Positions 25,677 through 40,200 of a DNA stretch of 64,000 nucleotides are shown here, one piece after another. The position numbers and the translations under genes were made by a program. The stretch's first letter is position 1. Each line of letters starts with the position of its first letter. The stretch spans positions 17,794,001 through 17,858,000 of the forward strand of contig CM075101.1 in the NCBI GenBank assembly GCA_037576195.1. The letters are read 5' to 3'. This stretch comes from Phytoseiulus persimilis (taxonomy: Eukaryota > Arthropoda > Arachnida > Mesostigmata > Phytoseiidae). The notes under the pieces were generated by a model. It was given only the letters and a program-made list of their open reading frames with translations, was not told where the DNA came from and did not search any database.

Positions 25677-26573
25677 TTAGAGCGGAACGAATGTATGGCA
25701 AAGCGTACTGAAAACATCAGTGAAATGAACATATAGCTCATCAACATCATCTCCAGCATCTGCCGCAATGGAATGCCAGGGAATTATGAGGAGATGGTCG
25801 ATAATCGAATCATAGTCAGCGTTGATGGGATCACGAGACGGAATAACAACTGTGTCCCCATCAAAATTAATCAGAACGCGAAACGCTACGATAGAGTGGT
25901 CTGTACGAAGAGGTGCCGGAGAAACATCAAGTTGCGTCACGAAGTCAGGCTCATTCGTCAGAACATGATCCAGCAGGTTACCACTCCGATGCGTGGGCTC
26001 TGTAACGAGTTGGGTCATTCCATGCATGGCCAGGAAGTCTAACAGAAGCTCCTCTCTCGAAGAAGACCATAGAAGCGAGGCACGTGAGAACGTTTCATGT
26101 TGTCGAAAGACTGACACCGTCTCGCGCCAGACGCCAGTGATGGATTCCCAGGATGGGTCGTCCCGGACTGGGTCGCTGCAGCTGTTCCTACACTTGGCCA
26201 CACGGATTGTGTGGCGTTCCTTCAAATGGAATTTCCTTGGACTCATGTCCGTGGAGAATCTGTTTTGGAATCGGCTCGCGCCGCTGGAGCAGTCCGATGG
26301 TGAGACAGGGACGACAGACCGTGGGGCTGGCGAGACAGTTAGGGAATTGATTCTAAGTGAGGCCGGGACATGGGGCGCCATGTTCGACAGAGGAGCATGC
26401 AAATCTGCAGAGTGGTCTCCGCCGCTCCTGGGATGAGGAAACATCGCAACCGGGACCCCAACGGGCGTTCCAGGTGGCCTCCGAGACAACCTCGTGGAAG
26501 TACTCACCGAACGGAGAACTATTGGTTTGACGGGATGAGATTGCTCGGAGCTGTGCGGATATCGAGCTGACAC
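25677..26573 (-). pseudogene. LINE endonuclease-domain fragment
   Basis: 298 open codons. Only about the last 130 resemble an endonuclease (from REELLLDFLAMHGM onward, with LLDHVLTN and TDHSIV); the first 170 are Ser/Pro-rich and match nothing I recognise. The domain's metal-binding N-terminal residues are missing, so it cannot be active. The first codon is GTG, not ATG. Confidence 0.75.
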
Positions 26574-29500: not shown

Positions 29501-31181
29501 ACGAATTGTTTTTCCGGCATGATACGGCTGTCTTCACAGGTTGAGAGCTCAACGATCCGGGAGTCACAATATTACTCAGAGCTCCTTTCACTAGAGCTAC
29601 AGTATTGACTTCCTGTTCCAGAATTCTTGGCCACATTTTGAAAACGCCGTCATACTCGGTTGTGGGTTCGGATTTGGTAGTGTCCCCATGCCTTCCTTGC
29701 GGAACGAGATTGAATGCCTGGGACAGAACAATCGCGAGCTGCAGGGTTTTTCGGAGTGCATCCAATCCTTGGGAATCGATGCTCGAGGTTCAGGAACCGT
29801 TTCGCATTATTGACTTTGAGAAACAGCGTCGGCGCAGAAGCGTCTGCTGCGATCCAGATCCGAAAAGAGAAACTCGGAATGTGCTCCCTCGGCGCCATGA
29901 TAATTCGATCGGAAAGCGACGGCCGGGATGGAGCATCTATGATGTTCAATATACTCGCATGGCTCACAACTCGAGTCATCGATCCGGATTCTCGCGATTA
30001 ATGTCTTCAACAGTCTCGGATCTATGCGGTATCAATATCCGCAATTACTCCTAGGTTCCAACATTGGAATCTTTGAAGCGTCTCAAGGGGCGCAGTTGAG
30101 CAGCCAAGTGAACGAAATTCGAAATCCTCTCTTTGAGTTCCGAGCTCGTTTTGTGATAAGTGGGAGGGCTGCGGGATTGAAAGCAGCCTGTGTTGGCAAG
30201 ATCGCAAACTTGTTCCTGGATCATCAGTGGAACGAGCACGACGGACATATTCAAGGATGGGTGTTCCATGGCTGGGAAGAATGCAAGTCCTAGTTCCTCG
30301 GATGTCCTCCCAGATCTGTTACCAACTTTGTGTTCAGTGTGTTATCGCTCCGACAGGCTTCCCAGGGACTACCTCCGAACTGGGTGATAGATCATTTGTT
30401 TCTCCAGAGCAACTCCGTCGCTCGAAAAGACTTACGGGTCTGCTGCAGGAAGAGGAATGTGTTCCTTAGATTTTCCGCTTTGTAAGGAGTCAAAGAGGTG
30501 TAACTAAGCCTCATTCGAAAGCGCGACGAACGGAGAAGGGAATGGCTTCCTGGGTCCAGCCAGGACTTGTCGACCGTTTATCCTTCATCTGTTCATCGAC
30601 CTTCCATGATATCGAACGTCGGAACTTTCTGATGAACCTTTCGAGGGGCCGATTCTCAGCGATGTATGATTGGTTGCTGACCCTGGAGATGATGAGGTAC
30701 CCCTGAAGATTGATTATCACTTGCCCGATTCTCACCAGCCCTATTCCGGCACTACTCGAGTGAACAGGAAGCAAAAGGAACCTCCATGAACGAAACAGTT
30801 CGCTAGTTCTGCGCGGAATACGAGTGGGGAACTGGGACGGACGCCGATCATGGCCTCGAAGTTGCTGATTTCGAGATGCTCTAGAACAGCGAGGGTAAGT
30901 CGCGCTCGCGTTGGGTTAACGAGAAGACTGTACCCACATAGCTTATTCTATGTTCCCGTCATTTCCCGCAAAGAGTCACTTATCTTTACGAGGGTGCCAT
31001 ATGGGGCTCTGAGTCAGTTTCCCTCGGAATTCTCTCTCTCCCTCGACGAAACTAGAGATCGAGAAATTTTCGCACGACGGGGGTGACTCACAAAATAAGG
31101 TGGAGCTTCATGGGCCAGAAAATGTGGCGCTCTCAATCTCGTAAAAAACTGGTCCGCAAATCAGACCATTCTTCCTGATCA
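26574..31181. other. No gene recognised
   Basis: Open frames up to about 170 codons on both strands (for example 28775-29293 minus), without recognisable domains. A segment near 28750-28830 (plus) reads SSSGGLTIFIHDSHPWK, faintly like a LINE endonuclease, but too little to call. Contains the C13 tract at 28298-28310. Confidence 0.45.
28292..28310 (+). repeat. TGCTTG followed by 13 Cs
   Basis: The identical 19-base word recurs at 57456-57474; the bases on either side differ. Confidence 0.85.
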
Positions 31182-31307
31182 CGATTAGGGGTCGCAAAAA
31201 TCCACGAGTCCAGGCAAGGGCGCAAAATCTCGGTTACGGGTTCGAATCCCAAAGTCTCTGATTTTGGGCTAGTACCATGGGGGAGCCGAAGGCTGACTTT
31301 AGATACC
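31182..31307 (+). repeat. Left outer inverted end of the composite element, with B-box motif
   Basis: Aligns to the reverse complement of 33465-33610. It contains GGTTCGAATCC (31239-31249), a perfect match to the RNA polymerase III B-box consensus GGTTCGANNCC, in a tRNA T-arm-like setting GGGTTCGAATCCC. A convincing A box was not found, so a tRNA-derived SINE origin is possible but unproved. Confidence 0.7.
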
Positions 31308-31501
31308 ATTACTTTTCAACTCTGGAGGGGTAATTCCGAGACCAACCTGACCATACTTTCTCAAGTCTGGAGGGGTGATTCCGGGACCAATCTGACCATT
31401 ACTTTCCAACTCTGGAGGGCCGATTCCGAGACCAATCTGACCATTATTTCGAACTCCTGAGGGGTGATTCCGGGACCAATCTGACCATACTTTTCAAGTC
31501 T
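31308..31501 (+). repeat. 45-bp tandem repeat array, left block (about 4 copies)
   Basis: Units follow the pattern CTGGAGGGG + TGATTCCGAGACC + AATCTGACCATACTTTTTCA with a few substitutions per copy. Same unit and orientation as 32661-33079. Confidence 0.9.
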
Positions 31502-31633
31502 TTGTTTTCCGGCTCAACCTCTCAGCCAGCCCTCAGAAGTGTCCTGGGATCACCCTTCGGTATTGCTTCAGTAACACTCAGAGCTGTGCGCCGTGAGGAT
31601 TCTGACGGCGGCGGCGGCGGACGGAAAAAAAGG

Positions 31634-31654
31634 CGGCGGCGACGATCGCCGCCG
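31634..31654. repeat. GC-rich hairpin next to a (CGG)n stretch
   Basis: A 9-bp perfect stem (CGGCGGCGA with its complement) around loop CGA. It lies just downstream of a run of CGG triplets at 31606-31620. Confidence 0.6.
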
Positions 31655-32381
31655 GCATTTCCGCGGCGGAGGAAACTGGCTCGGCGCGCCGCAGATTCCG
31701 GCTAACTGGCAATGGCTAATGGAATTCAGCCTGTTCGGCGCGAGAAGTGCCTGTACTCAAGCGAGATGATTCACAAAAGTCATGCTTAAATTTCTTCCGT
31801 CCTATCGAGTACTTCAGACTCAACGTGCAATATATCAATTCCAGATTTAAAATTAGGGTCATCTTAATAGGGCGGTCACAAGTTTTATATTATTCCCAAC
31901 AATGAGCGTCAAGTACCTGGTCTACAACTATGAAACCGGATTTTTTTGAAAATGTTGCCAACGTCTCTGTAGTCTAGAAATTGGGCTGGTATCCAGCCTG
32001 AGTTACTATCCCGGTATCAAACCACCTGTTCCATCACCCTCCACTTTTTGCTTCTGATTATTTGAAAGTTGCCGTGGAAAATGGCTGGTACGTGCCAGGA
32101 AATGAGTTCCAGCGAGGAAATCTTCCGTTCTGTTACCAGGTCTGCAACTGTCAAACCGGATTTTTTTCATGAGGGACCCGTTCCCCGAGCTCCAGGATTT
32201 TTTTCCAGCGCTCTCAGACTTTTCGAAATGCATTGGTGAGGAGAGTCTTGAGATGTATCGTGCTGGCAGCAATGACACCGCAACATGCACACAGACGGAG
32301 CCGAATCCTTGGTTCGCTGATCGAAGGTTCTTGTGTTTTTCTAATTGCGTTCCGTTACTGAGACCATGATTCGAGACTCAT

Positions 32382-32463
32382 GGCTAGGGGCCGCAGACTC
32401 GGACTCGTGGATACTTGCGACCAGTCGCAAGTATCCGAGACCGAGAGCCACCCCTATTTGTGG
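32382..32463. repeat. 82-bp palindrome resembling the composite element's ends
   Basis: The left arm contains CTAGGGGCCGCAGACTCGGA and the right arm is its imperfect reverse complement. The centre is a perfect 12-bp stem GGATACTTGCGA with loop CCAG (32409-32436). The arms resemble the outermost bases of the 33.6-kb end (TTAGGGGTCGCAGACTCGGA). Confidence 0.7.
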
Positions 32464-32481
32464 GGCTCAATCACAAGGTCG

Positions 32482-32512
32482 GCCGCCGTGCGCCGCTCGG
32501 GCGCACGGCGGC
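32482..32512. repeat. GC-rich perfect hairpin
   Basis: Stem GCCGCCGTGCGCC pairs perfectly over 13 bp with 32500-32512 around loop GCTCG. An outer AGGTCGG/CCGACCT pairing (about 32476-32532) extends it. Confidence 0.75.
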
Positions 32513-32660
32513 TGCCGGGGCCATCCCGACCTCGGCGGCGCGGCGCACAGCTCTGGTAACACTCCCTATCGCCTCGCAAATCCCGTTGCGGGCGGTGGGC
32601 TTGGTTCTTAAGATGGTTCAGATTTAATTCTGATACAAATTAAATCCTCTTTTCACCTCA

Positions 32661-33079
32661 TTACTTTTTCAAGTCTGGAGGGGTGATTCCGAGACTAATA
32701 TGACCATGACTTTCCAAGTCCGGAGGGTTGATTCCGAGACCAATCTGACCATACTTTTTCAAGTGTTGAGGGGTGATTCCGGGACCAATTTGACCATACT
32801 TTTTCAAGTCTGGAGGGGTAATTCCGAGACCAATCTGACCATGACTTTCCAAGTGTGGAGGGGTGATTCCGAGACCAATCTGACCATACTTTTTCAAGTC
32901 TCGAGGGTTGATTCCGAGACAAATCTGTCCATACTTTTTCAAGTCTGGAGGAGTGATTCCGGGACCAATCTGACCATTACTTTCCAGCTCTGGAGGGCTG
33001 ATTCCGAGACCAATCTGACCATACTTTTTCAAGTGTGGAAGGGTGATTCCGAGACCATTCTGACCATACTTTTTCAAGT
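32661..33079 (+). repeat. 45-bp tandem repeat array, central block (about 9 copies)
   Basis: Nine units in a row, period 45 bp, alternating in whether the accepting sequence reads ACTTTTTCAAG or ACTTTCCAA. The period is a multiple of three, so long open frames arise on both strands without implying a protein. Confidence 0.93.
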
Positions 33080-33136
33080 TTTTTTTTTTCCAGGCGGGGG
33101 GGGGAAATCCGTTTGGATACAAGAGATAGGACTTAC

Positions 33137-33464
33137 GCCCCTCCAGAGTTGGAAAGTAATGGTCAGATTGGTCTCGGAATCACCCCTCAAGAGTTGGAGA
33201 GTAATGGTCAGACTGGTCTCGGAATCACCCCTCCAGAGTTGAAAAAGTATGGTCAGATTGGTCCTGGAATCACTCCTCCAGACTTGAGAAAGTAATTGTC
33301 AGATTGGTCCCGGAATCACTCCTCCAGACTTGAAAAAGTAATTGTCAGATTGGTCTCGGATTCACCCCTCCAGAGTTGGAAAGTAATGGTCAGATTGGTC
33401 TCGGAATCACCCCTCCAGACTTGAAAAAGGAATGGTCAGATTGGTCTCGGAATCACTCCTCCAG
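33137..33464 (-). repeat. 45-bp tandem repeat array, inverted block (about 7-8 copies)
   Basis: The same unit as 32661-33079 but reverse-complemented. The two blocks are separated by a 57-bp spacer with an 11-base T run and a G tract (33080-33136). A transcript crossing both would form a hairpin with arms of more than 300 nt. Confidence 0.93.
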
Positions 33465-33610
33465 TCAGTGATTCTCGACGGAAAGTCAGCCTCAAATTCC
33501 GATCTTACTAGCTCAGAATCAGAGATTTTGGGATTCGAACCCGTAACCGAGATTCTGCGCCCTCACTCGCGAGTCCGAGTCCGAGTCTGCGACCCCTAAT
33601 CACGATTCTC
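33465..33610 (-). repeat. Right outer inverted end of the composite element
   Basis: Reverse-complement counterpart of 31182-31307, carrying the B-box-like motif on the minus strand (33530-33542). It has an extra GACTCG duplication (GACTCGGACTCGGACTCG on the minus strand) relative to the left end. Confidence 0.7.
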
Positions 33611-36600
33611 ATATCAGACCCCAAGCCCGTTGAGTCCCCACAGCCATCACATTCTGAATCAACGTCGCGGCTTGATCTCACGGCCCGACAAGCGAGACAT
33701 CGTGGACGAAGACCTTGGTGGTCGCCTGGAACTGAGCAGTGAGCTGAATCACACTTCGGAGAACACAACACAGCGACTTCCCGGAGCATGGGTACGCGAG
33801 AAAAAAGGAGCCGCTGAGCATGAATTGCGGCTGAATTGAAAGGTCCACTAAGCCATGGACCATTCACAATCTACGACCTCTATGCACCCCAGGGTCTTCG
33901 AAACATTTTTGTTGTCGGGCTGTGTTTCAAGTGATGACGTACGCGGTGAGCGCACAACCTCGCTATTTCTGCCCCCACTCCCCCTACGCGCCTCGCCGTC
34001 TTCGGGTTTGGCAGACGGCTGAATCGGCTCGCCGAAGCGAAGTCCACTATTTTCGAAAATTGGGAAAGCTGTGATTGATGATATCATGATTGAGACTCGA
34101 GAAGATGAGGACGCTTCCAGTGAAGTTCTCGGGAAACAAGAAAGCCTCAACGATATTCTGCGTCGGAAATGCCGTAAACGCAAACCAGACAGTGTCGAAG
34201 GTGAATCCAAAAAGTCTGAAAGTCGGAAAAGGAGCCGTCAGTGGCACGCTTGTAGAAGATCCAAGAAGGAGTGGACATAGGCACAATCAGGTGTGAGCTG
34301 AGTGTGTGAACTGAAAGTCACAAATTGGGTACTGACCAGGTGTGGGCATTTTTTGCACTCGGCATGAGTGCTCATCGATTCCTTGAGTTCCTTCGTGAAG
34401 CGCACAGACGTCCGTATGGCAATTCCGACGAAACTGAAGATATGACGTTCTGTTTTTTCTCCAGGACCGCGAAGGTCACCGAGAATTAGGTGATTTCAAT
34501 ACAGATTCGAGCAGTTCGGCTCGGCGAAGCGGAGATATCGGTCTCGAAAGATCCGCTTATGGTAGTCTTGATTTTGCTGTTGCAGGGGAACAACTGTGCC
34601 GATCTGGCTGGCACGGCGAACAGTCTGGGCCGAGGACCGGGCTACCTTCTCATGGAAATTCGGCAAGACCCATCGGAAGAGTGGCGAGAATTGAGTTTTG
34701 AAAAAGCTCTATTCATCCTATCAAACCACTCGGCCCTGAATGCCACACCGGAAATCTCGTAGTTGCGTTCGCAAGCTTCGAAAACGTTCCATATGATCCA
34801 ACTTCTGACCCTTGACCTATTCCTTCAAAATACGGTTCAAAATCAGGAACTTCGGGCACGCAAATCGAAGCATCTCAGGAGTAGCATGGACAGAGTGATA
34901 GGAATGTCTTCCTTCTCGCGAGACAATGTGTTCGGTTGCTTTGCCGAAGAATTATTCCTGGCTTCTCCAGATCATGTCGCGTTCTTTGATGTTAAGACTA
35001 CCATTATAGAATCATGAAGTGTGCCGTTCTGGAAAAAGTCCAGATTTATTTGAGTGACCTCACAAGCAAGGACTCAAATGTAATCGAGCGTTGGCTGCGA
35101 GGTTAGAAGTTCGAATCAGATCTGGCTTAGAGTTACTCAGAGAGAAATAAGGAGATATCGATCCGGCGAAACAAGTTTCGAAGGGATCAGAGAAAGCTGA
35201 TCCGGAGCCTGATTCTGAATATTCGGAGTTCCGGTTCCAAACTTCGATTTCAAAGAGGGCATTGGATCACGTGGTACAAGCAATTATTTCATGCGTCGTT
35301 CTCAAGTCGATCCGGGAGCGGGCCGACAGACGGTGCATGATTTGGTGGTAGAAAATCCGGATCTCCTTGACGGACTGCGAATGGGTTCAAACTTCAGAGT
35401 GAACGCGGATGAATGTGGCCTCTCAAAAAAGACGAAATCGGCCGCTGCAAGCATCGCCTGCGAAATTCCAGGACTCGTTTTGCGAACGGTGAGCTCAATC
35501 GTGCCGTTTTCATATTCCCGCGAGTTCGCGATCCCCTCGCAACTCACAGGAACTCACCTCAAACCCCGTAAGGTTTCTCATATTGAACAAATCAATGAAT
35601 TGATGAATGTTGTTTGGTGATGACTGCCTTGGCCTCTTAGCTCAACCCATGACCATCGAACGAGGTTTCACGTGTCCCTTCGGACCACCAACTCCCATGG
35701 CTGGGAGCTATGTAGGAGAAAAATCGCTCTCTCGTAAATTCGTTTATTCGGGTTTAAATGGATACTAGTTTTACAATTGATTTCGTCATACTTCTCTGCT
35801 TTATTTTAAAATTCCGATCGGATCTAGCTCATGAAATACGTTTCCCTACAGCAGTCCTAAACACTCCATGACTTTGTTCGCCACGAAAAATTGTCGACGT
35901 TGTAAGGTGCAGTGCGGCGATATATATATTACAATTGTATGTACAGACGACCGCGCACCGTTCCATAGTCTTCAATGAATTCACTTCGCAATCCCTCCGC
36001 GTAGAGTTCCCCGACATTCAAAAGCACCCACTGGCCCGAGTCCTACTGTCTATTCTTGTTCACTCCAGCTCGCTGGCCGACCAACTCGCTCATCATTTAG
36101 TGTTTGTGTCTTCATTTCCAGGTGTTCCCGCTGGAAGACCTTACGCGCTCTCCATGCTCGCTTCCGGTCGTATTACCCAGAACGCAACCGATTATCCACT
36201 GGCAGAGCCAAAGCTCCTGTGAAATCGTTATCGAATTTCATTTGCTCGCGGAACGCTGGTCGAGGTTCTCGTTGACGTTATGATACATGACGTGTCGCTC
36301 CGCTGTCGTGGTGCAGCGCTTCATGGCATGACAGACAAAATTTGAAGCTTGCCCGAGGGTCGCGTTAAAAGTAATTGTACATCAATCCGTGTCGCCTCCG
36401 ACCGCCCACATGAAGGCCCGATTCGTATTTGGTGCTGATCGATTTCTCTAACAAAGGGAGGTCCAGGGCTGGTAAAGCTCCGTCTATAATTTCAGCTTCG
36501 TGTTCAGTCGCCGTCCATTCTGCTTCATGAATATGTTGTCGTCAAACACCAGTGGGGTCGTTGTACTGATGAACTGTGTCCCGACGCTCCGAGAGCTCGG

Positions 36601-37201: not shown

Positions 37202-40200
37202 CTGAAATTGAACTTGATTAGACTCCTGATCATTGGACAACGACCTGGAGCCAAAAATGGGGAACACTCAATAATCGTTCTAAGGGCGAGAAGGGCGCTG
37301 TCCATTTGGAAGAATCGATAGTAATCTCGACGACATGGCGCGATAAAATTCCATGCAGCAAGGCGTAGAGCAGAGAGGAATCGAATACGCGAGAGCGGGT
37401 TTCGCACTGCATTCGTTTCCCGACAACATTCCGTTAGACCCCGACGATCGGGATGGTTTCTCGCTTTGGATAAATCAGTCTCGCGCACGCACCTTGACCT
37501 GAATCGTACGGAGACGATTCTGAATACGTTCCTCGAGCTCTCGGCGCTCTTTGTTCCTCTGACTCTCGAACATAATTTTCTTCTTCGATTGGAACGCGAG
37601 CAAGAGCTCCTGTTCGCTCAGGAGGTCCTGCTTCAACTGGCGGAGTTCTGCTGTCTGGGACTCGTCAAGCCTAATCGATTGTTTCTGCAGCATTTCGGAT
37701 ATGCTCTGTTCGTATTGCTCGCCCAGCAGGGCCAACTTGCGAACCTGCGGAAGGAAAGCAAATCACATCGATGTTAGTTCCCGGCATAGCGGTACTTTAC
37801 CCCGGAAGGTGGTTCCGCGCATGCACAATGTTTGAAGGGAATGACGTCCTGTGCGCACACATGAGGCAGCTCGGTGCGTTGACGGCTCGTCCGTCCAGAA
37901 CTGCTGGCATGGTCGCTCACCTGTTCGTCCTTGAGCTTTTTGATGAGTTCCTTTTGCCGATCTCGTGGTGTGCTAGCCATCAGCTGGCTTTTCCAGGCTT
38001 TGTACTGTCGGGTCTGAATTTTGCAGGCTTCGCGGAATTGTTTCCGAATCTGCACTTCCTTGTGCTTCAGGCTCTTCGGTTGCTGTTTCACCTCGGCCGC
38101 GTGCTTTTTGTGCAACTCGTGCTCTCGCCGTGTACTGTACTGCTTTTGAAGACTCGATTCGGTCTCGTGCTGCCTACGCAGGTGCTCGCCCTTCAATTCG
38201 TGGACAGCCCTCTGCTGGGCCAGTTCAAGATTTTGAGTATCCTCGTGATGTCTCAATAGCATCAGGTGAGCTTTTTCCAGTTGCTGTTGACGTCTATCCA
38301 GTTCTTCCCTGAGTTGCTCTTGCTCCAGCTGGTGGTACTGGACCAGCTTGCGACGTCTGTACCTCCTGAAGTGGAAAGAAACATGCCGCGATCAGCCACG
38401 GCGATAAGAGTTCATCACGAGCAGAAGTATTCTGAAGTCTCCCGGCATTCCGCGCTTCATGTTTACGGAAAACTCCCCCGGGAAGAGTTGAAATGCGGAA
38501 GTTCCTCATCGGCAGAATCCCATCATATCGAGGACTCGACTGCAACCCCGAATATGAATCCGGTTCACTCTCATACACACCTGATTTCACGCCTGAGTGA
38601 GTCGGCTTGGTTGACACCTAGTCTCGTGAGCTCCTGGCTTTGGCTTTCGTGGAGTCCTGCCTTATGAATTTTGAGTTCCTCGCCGTCGTAACGCTGTTTG
38701 TACTTTTCTTTCTCGTTTTTGTACGCGGATTTCTGCAGCTGCTGGAACTTCTTCGTTTCTTCGTCTTGTTTGGCTTGGATTGCTTTAATGAGTCGCTTCT
38801 CGTTTCCCACGTTGCTTTTCACCTTCTTTTCGAGGTCCTGCTGCTGCTTGATCTGGAGCTTTTCCAGCTCCTTGCCGAACGACATCAGGAGAGCTTCGTA
38901 CTCCTTGTCGAGCTTCGCCTTGTGATCGTCCATATCCTGAAGACACTTTGCTTCTAGCACAACCAGAGCTTTGTGGTGTTGGTCCTGCATTCGTTTGTAT
39001 CCGCGCATCTGGAGCTCGTTTTCCTGTTCCTGGTGCTCCTTGATTTGACGGGTGACGATCGAAGTCGTTCGAATGGTAGCGAAGTTGTCGTTGCGGTTGA
39101 CGGTGCCCACAAGGGAACCCTGGCCTTCGAGAGCCCCGACTTCCGTCACACTGTTCAGGCTCGCGGACGAAGAGTTGCTGATGCTTTGTCGATGGATGGA
39201 ATGTCTTCCGGCATTCTGATCGTTGACACAAGAGCCGCTCGAAACATTGCTGCTCTGCGTCGAAGTGAGACTGTTGTTCTTGGAAGCGTCTCCGTCCTCC
39301 TGCAATGGAAGTTGCTAGTTACGGATCTTTTCCGTAGTCAGGGGTGAACAGTATGAAACAAACAAATCGGCATTCTGGAGGGGTATCGGGAACTCACGCT
39401 AACAGCACTGTCTGCGTCATCGTGCACGGATGCACCCTGACCATTGTCACCATTGGTCTCGCTCGTTCCATCAATCATGAGGATTTTCTTCATCTTTCGG
39501 TAGTTGATATTGTCCAACTCACGGACTGCAGATTTCGTCCTGATAATTAAATCCAGCAGAACTCGGCTGGGTCGCGGCCGAACGATGAAAGTGTGCTGGA
39601 AGTACATCGAGCACTTTTTGATAACGAGCCACCAGTGATCGCATATTCAGATAAGTGCATCGCATGAGAAGCCATTCGGAATCCGGAACTGAGCACGGAT
39701 ACCGACGTTTCAGCGGGCGATCGTTACAAGCTTTACAACCTTGAGTAATTGAGCCGCCGTTGGTCTGGTAGACGGATCCTTCTGCAGGCATTCGATCACG
39801 TAGTTCCGAAACTCCTCCGTCCACTCGTAGGTTGCCGACAGCTTGGGACTGTCATTCTGGGCGATATGATAGAGTGCTGACATCGAATGCATGTTGAAGT
39901 AGGGAGGCTTTCGTTCAGCCAACTCGATACAGGTGATTCCGAGACTCCACACGTCGATCTTCCCATCGTATTGACCCTCATCCATGGCTGAAGACAGCAA
40001 GTTTGGAACCCTCAGTTTCGTCTCCCCACAAAAATCATAACCTCGCTGTCAAGCTCATGCAGTGAACAAGCGATGGCTTGTTCTCCAATCGGGAACCATA
40101 ATTCCAAGCCAATACGATCGCGCGGAGGATCCACACTCACCTAGAATCACTTCGGGCGCCATCCAGTACGGCGTCCCCACGAATGAATTCGCGGGGCAGT

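Follow-up and report, generated by a model that had tools for sequence, protein, structure and literature searches.

Is the block of tandem repeats at the middle of this 64-kb stretch of DNA a mobile element, and if so, of what kind? The stretch (hereafter the window) spans C1:17794001-17858000 of a 181-Mb genome assembled in 127 contigs, four of them 28–55 Mb long. A preliminary description placed the block at 31182-33610, noted inverted outer ends enclosing opposed arrays of a 45-bp unit, and likened it to the Foldback (FB) transposons of Drosophila. Both the inverted outer ends and the opposed arrays are present in the sequence. The right block had been chosen, but its termini and 8-bp duplications set the exact bounds at 31186-33598, giving an element of 2,413 bp with later insertions counted in. 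Likewise, the switch between the arrays had been put in the right place, at 33080-33136, but proved to be a 58-bp spacer ending at 33137. The estimate of about 13 forward and 7–8 reverse units stands, with 13 and 7 found in our unit scan and 4.4 plus 9.3 forward and 7.2 reverse units reported by TRF. No gene lies between the arms of this copy, and its forward array is interrupted at about 31500-32653 by later material, a repeat that we call X with a 977-bp element inside it. Our best explanation, held with high confidence, is that the block is a non-autonomous, foldback-shaped copy of a cut-and-paste transposon of the hAT superfamily. Its parts, in window coordinates, are as follows.

31178-31185, no strand: left target-site duplication ATCACGAT, identical to the right copy at 33599-33606
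31186-33598, no strand: whole foldback-type hAT element, transposase gene absent
31186-31304, plus strand: outer end, type A, beginning TAGGGGTCGCAAAAATCCACGAG
31305-31501, plus strand: forward 45-bp array, outer part, 4.4 units (TRF)
31500-32653, plus strand: short T-tailed repeat X, a later insertion, its mechanism and exact borders inferred
31571-31578, no strand: left target duplication GTAACACT of the nested hAT-like element
31579-32555, no strand: nested hAT-like element, 977 bp, with terminal repeats CAGAGCTGTGCGCCG
32556-32563, no strand: right target duplication GTAACACT of the nested hAT-like element
32662-33079, plus strand: forward 45-bp array, inner part, 9.3 units (TRF)
33080-33137, no strand: spacer between the arms, 58 bp, where larger siblings have the transposase gene
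33138-33464, minus strand: reverse 45-bp array, 7.2 units (TRF)
33465-33598, minus strand: outer end, type B, beginning TAGGGGTCGCAGACTCGGACTCG
33599-33606, no strand: right target-site duplication ATCACGAT

To place this copy within a family, we searched the genome with the 149-bp A end, which gave at least 46 matched pieces (40 of 139 candidates scored), and extracted 34 loci of 5–9.5 kb, all picked by likeness to the A end of the window. Termini were defined as TAGGGGTCGC 10-mers with at most two mismatches, and the 97 pairs that face each other in these loci were examined for matching 8-bp flanks. Such flanks accompany 15 of the 97 pairs, and 14 of the 22 pairs having no more than one mismatch per terminus; in the control, with flanks shifted by 10–59 bases, 3 of 4,850 comparisons matched. 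Fifteen of the 34 loci therefore hold complete copies with facing termini and matching flanks (14 exact, one with a single mismatch), bearing out the expectation that the same architecture and target-site duplications recur elsewhere. Counting against the transposon explanation, 19 loci show no confirmed end pair despite having been chosen by A-end similarity: 15 have one terminus, three have none, and L016 has two A-type termini without matching flanks. The complete copies range from 485 to 6,722 bp and contain 5 to 79 units each, 463 in total.

Across the whole genome we counted 139 A-type and 175 B-type termini with up to three mismatches, and controls gave none, so the proposed refuting case, that no other copy of the ends exists, is excluded. 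These counts of termini are not counts of whole elements, because at least 10 A termini sit in 42-bp tip-to-tip pairs and because the B count is inflated by copies of the nested hAT-like element that also carry a B-like 23-mer. In the window this 23-mer lies at 32385-32407, inside the nested element, and matches the B terminus of the family with one mismatch; it also occurs in other copies of the nested element. The tip-to-tip arrangement, in which an A and a B end face each other over 42 bp in total with nothing between them, was seen in at least 10 places: C1:2869737-2869778, C1:3001462-3001503, C1:3014966-3015007, C2:4790534-4790575, C3:23874973-23875014, and five more on C3 as far as 24000829. 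Six of these pairs cluster within a 0.13-Mb stretch of C3. Also on C3, at 23712301-23728314, three B termini are spaced 7,996 and 7,995 bp apart, which suggests a tandem or segmental duplication that includes the B end.

The superfamily assignment rests on the target sites, the termini, and the gene carried by larger siblings. hAT elements make 8-bp target-site duplications, as seen here, prefer targets of the form nTnnnnAn, and have termini with A at position 2 and G at position 5. Of the 15 duplications, 14 have the T at position 2 and 12 the A at position 7 (L020 being scored from the right-hand copy of its duplication), and the termini TAGGGGTCGC fit the hAT pattern, with terminal substitutions in some copies.

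The gap between the arms is 3.15 kb in L023, L025, and L036 and 2.45 kb in L031. In L025 it contains stop-to-stop frames of 423 and 279 codons, separated by 111 bp with GT-AG borders that keep the frame, as in a two-exon gene. In both L023 and L025, exon 1 encodes a BED zinc finger (zf-BED PF02892, E 5.9e-7) and exon 2 a hAT dimerisation domain (Dimer_Tnp_hAT PF05699, E 2.9e-5), each above the Pfam cut-off. BED zinc fingers are common in the hAT superfamily, if not universal. No THAP or MULE domain appeared among the Pfam matches. A search of solved structures returned no match for exon 1; the best solved relative of exon 2 was Hermes, a hAT element with short repeats and, to our knowledge, no long arrays, and this similarity is weak (E 0.011). 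Because siblings carry a gene with BED and hAT-dimerisation domains between their arrays, we regard the element as a hAT-type transposon with foldback architecture, in which long inverted ends made up of tandem repeats flank a centre that varies. The abundance of the ends, the architecture common to other copies, and the target-site duplications all agree with the earlier proposal of a mobile element of foldback form.

In the copies at C3:15.26 Mb (L025) and C4:11.74 Mb (L023), neither exon contains a stop anywhere along its length; the copy at C3:29.10 Mb has one stop in exon 2. The exon 1 match of L031 starts only at residue 46, so its BED finger is cut, and the gene of L036 is interrupted in both exons. 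Among the matches listed, these five are the loci with an exon 1 at least 96% identical to that of L025, and each lies between facing A and B ends. A sixth gene copy, at C3:24.76 Mb, is broken and 93% identical; its B end is 10 kb away, and no facing A end occurs among the matches listed. Exon 2 fragments of at least 85% identity lie at further places, and more distant hAT genes of the genome are about 24–51% identical. Over 3,104 bp, the centre of L025 shares 99.5% identity with that of L023 and 98.6% with that of L036. Judged from these sequences, the family has moved recently, since near-identical centres are flanked by duplications that differ from site to site. The enzyme of intact siblings would be expected to cut and paste the window copy in trans.

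The later history of the window copy can be read from its nested insertions. Repeat X has a T-rich tail and lies in two pieces, at about 31500-31578 and 32564-32653, split by the 977-bp hAT-like element; sequences resembling the latter occur elsewhere in the genome in pieces of up to 98% identity. Because X sits in the forward array and the hAT-like element sits in X, the order of events is the foldback element first, then X, and then the second hAT-like element; the copy would have lost its centre before X arrived. X is also present in L036, where it is the target of a foldback-family insertion with the duplication GACCCAAG. The X of the window has no foldback insert and a single target copy, one base off the 8-bp target of L036, and it thus represents an unoccupied version of that site.

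The family has asymmetric ends. In every complete copy (15 of 15) an A end (CGCAAAAATCCACGAG) is paired with a B end (CGCAGACTCGGACTCG); these are distinct outer ends of roughly 120–200 bp, and the 45-bp units follow each of them inward, head to tail. Of the 34 loci, eight keep part of the centre. Relative to the ends, five of them (L023, L025, L031, L030, and L026) carry the gene reading B to A, and three (L036, L034, and L024) carry it A to B; L026, L034, and L024 have only one typed end each. Among the five complete copies that keep part of the centre the orientation is thus four to one, and L036 is the odd one. Its centre appears to be inverted between its ends, because L036 has matching duplications and a centre nearly identical to that of L025. 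Recombination between the arms would produce such an inversion, and an exchange of ends is the alternative; this one complete copy is what we infer it from.

Both outer ends also contain GGTTCGAATCC (window 31240-31260 and 33530-33545), which we take to resemble a tRNA B box. An origin of the ends from tRNA was rejected: ARAGORN (bacterial code setting) predicted no tRNA anywhere in the window, the best Rfam match over 31100-33700 was to an unrelated family with 22 bits against a gathering score of 80, and no tRNA or SINE model matched.

The arms vary widely in length. Units occur in both arms of 12 of the 15 complete copies, the window copy included, and in the A arm only of the other three, with up to 76 units in one arm. 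Two arrays may thus not be required, since those three copies have no recognised B-arm unit. In 11 of the 15 the larger number of units is in the A arm; a one-sided sign test gives about 0.06, and we claim no bias from it. The first forward unit core lies 132–212 bp from the left end in 14 of the 15 copies (1,333 bp in L020). Twelve copies have right-arm units, and in 11 of these the first core is 135–243 bp inside the right end (572 bp in L012). The arms probably grow and shrink by unequal exchange, and they may recombine with each other in a way able to invert the centre. There was no clear sign that the two arms of a copy evolve in concert: left units were nearest to their own right arm in three of 10 elements, by nearest and by mean distance, and the mean unit distance was somewhat lower within elements (0.081) than between them (0.108).

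Most of the repeat units lie outside the complete copies. The 19-base core of the unit has 25,509 exact matches in the genome (control, 0), which at 45 bp each amount to about 1.15 Mb, or 0.6% of the assembly, from exact matches alone; in the 34 loci the core is exact in 515 of 1,198 units (1,199 were detected, one being left out as incomplete). The 15 complete copies hold 203 core matches, about 13.5 each, so about 140 copies would, by extrapolation, hold under a tenth of the total. Core matches start at base 3 of C1, a chromosome-sized contig, and arrays lie at C1:25,787-31,565 and from C1:428,777 to at least 436,009, while the lowest C1 end among the matches listed is at 2,869,737. At C1:54.09-54.146 Mb, dozens of unit matches all lie on the minus strand, with the nearest end among the matches listed about 63 kb away. 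An exact two-unit consensus has 23 genome copies, so the satellite units are not all identical to the consensus. The preliminary description took arrays and ends occurring independently as the mark of a local satellite. This is true in part, given the long arrays with no nearby end among the matches listed, but complete copies exist as well, and the 15 with matching 8-bp flanks argue for an element plus a satellite, not for a local satellite alone.

Which came first, element or satellite, is the question on which the strongest rival turns. A hAT element may have captured an existing 45-bp satellite into its ends, leaving the arrays as passengers, and the small share of core matches found in complete copies (203 of 25,509) is in keeping with such an origin. 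The arrays are opposed, however, and start at a similar distance inside the ends, so multiplication in place fits better than repeated capture; a single ancient capture would be compatible with these positions. We consider a satellite-first origin possible, though clearly the less probable course. On the preferred reading, that the arrays multiplied within a hAT element, some of them would have been released from the ends and expanded into satellite DNA.

An evenly balanced reading of the 45-bp unit is that it is a multiplied, putative transposase-binding site that arose from subterminal repeats, with Hermes, Herves, and Galileo as the analogues. These precedents, the similar distance of the first unit from the left end in 14 of the 15 complete copies, and conserved columns, the best of which include TGATTCC and CCAATCTGA, all point in this direction. 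Herves, a hAT element of Anopheles gambiae, is described as having an unusually long left end with three imperfect 100-bp tandem repeats beginning 146 bp in, and its transposase as binding short repeated subterminal motifs, with the two ends bound differently (PMC3143072). As far as that account goes, its tandem repeats are few and described for the left end, and its terminal inverted repeats are 11 bp, whereas 12 of the 15 complete copies here have inverted 45-bp arrays at both ends. For Hermes, several BED domains are reported to read left-end subterminal repeats and none the right end (PMC10368747); on that description, a BED finger, a hAT dimerisation domain, and an 8-bp target are common to Hermes and the present family. 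A motif common to outer end and unit was sought by local alignment, and the best matches were not clearly beyond chance (shuffle p 0.70, 0.70, 0.12, and 0.11). More speculatively, and with a low probability in our estimation, the unit would be the binding site of the BED finger itself, its multiplication would have produced at least 1.1 Mb of transposase-binding satellite acting as a sink for the enzyme, and the family would drive inversions through arm-to-arm recombination.

As a direct consequence of its inverted arrays, the element is predicted to form a very stable hairpin. Folded as RNA, 32641-33598 reached −582 kcal/mol against −306 ± 8 for shuffled sequences (n = 20), so the hairpin suggested earlier for a read-through transcript holds in silico; as the preliminary description also suggested, it might be a source of siRNA. 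Conceivably, the arms might serve mainly as a source of long double-stranded RNA, a trigger of host silencing, and be kept for that. The predicted fold is what such a role would call for, but any inverted array would fold likewise, and we regard this explanation as improbable. The arrays also give rise to mock open frames at 32661-33122 (minus strand) and 32700-33242 (plus strand), on both strands, since the unit length of 45 is divisible by three and several frames of the unit contain no stop.

The comparison with FB raised a further alternative, a foldback element of the Mutator type (FB/Phantom) or of the P type (Galileo), which we judge highly improbable. Drosophila FB elements have inverted ends of tandem repeats, 9-bp duplications, and repeats and an enzyme of their own. 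The architecture therefore matches, as the preliminary description held, but kinship is not supported: the 8-bp duplications and the hAT-like protein of the siblings differ from the 9-bp duplications and MULE-type transposase of FB and Mutator foldbacks, and a relationship to FB was rejected on duplication length and protein domains. Published work ties the shape chiefly to Mutator, to which most foldback elements seem to belong (PMC4079207); Galileo, a P-superfamily element, is among the exceptions (PMC4079207, PMC3169594). An architecture like the present one is described for FB, Tm1, Tetris, and Galileo (PMC4079207, PMC3169594, PMC3573991). Galileo is reported to have long inverted ends that are internally repetitive, their tandem repeats containing additional sites for transposase binding, and to generate inversions (PMC3573991, PMC3688188); as described, it has a THAP transposase and 7-bp duplications, neither of which was found here. 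Tetris/TIR-220 of Drosophila virilis, a foldback element whose internal tandem repeats multiplied into satellite DNA, provides a precedent for the path from foldback repeat to satellite; its authors report 8–10-bp duplications, found no transposase, and attribute it to Mutator (PMC4079207), whereas the present family has coding, hAT-like siblings. Tm1 of root-knot nematodes, a Mutator/Foldback element with composite ends and a variable number of tandem motifs, shares with our family asymmetric terminal motifs and both coding and non-coding copies, yet is described as having 9-bp duplications, a Phantom/Mutator-like transposase, and a motif of about 14 bp (PMC3169594). Against both the Mutator and the P type stand the 8-bp duplications and the BED and hAT dimerisation domains.

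Equally improbable is a local, rearranged satellite, an immobile inverted 45-bp block, which the long arrays away from ends among the matches listed and the widely varying array lengths might favour; the termini and duplication of the block in the window refute it there, and it is contradicted by the 15 complete copies with common termini and flanks matching far beyond the control, by siblings with a transposase gene at their centre, and by the unoccupied version of one target site.

As a transposon the element is ordinary; it is less so in kind, since it belongs to a hAT lineage that combines foldback architecture with protein-coding members, two different ends, an indication that the centre has been inverted, and an extensive satellite of the same unit. 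In the open-licence literature searched, to the extent that its texts were available, we found no foldback element of hAT type. With its coding members, the family extends the foldback shape to another lineage and supports the published idea that this shape evolves repeatedly as terminal repeats grow. Since a single genome contains coding copies, internally deleted copies, and large arrays of the unit, the path from terminal repeats to satellite could be traced directly here.

Two neighbouring features of the window may be recorded. On the minus strand at 37774-39305 lie two open frames of coiled-coil type, with a match to Pfam PKK below the cut-off, which we presume to resemble the tail of a TAO-type kinase. 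Also on the minus strand, at 25677-26573, an open frame that weakly resembles endonuclease-reverse transcriptase (Exo_endo_phos_2, below the cut-off) is perhaps a decayed non-LTR retrotransposon.
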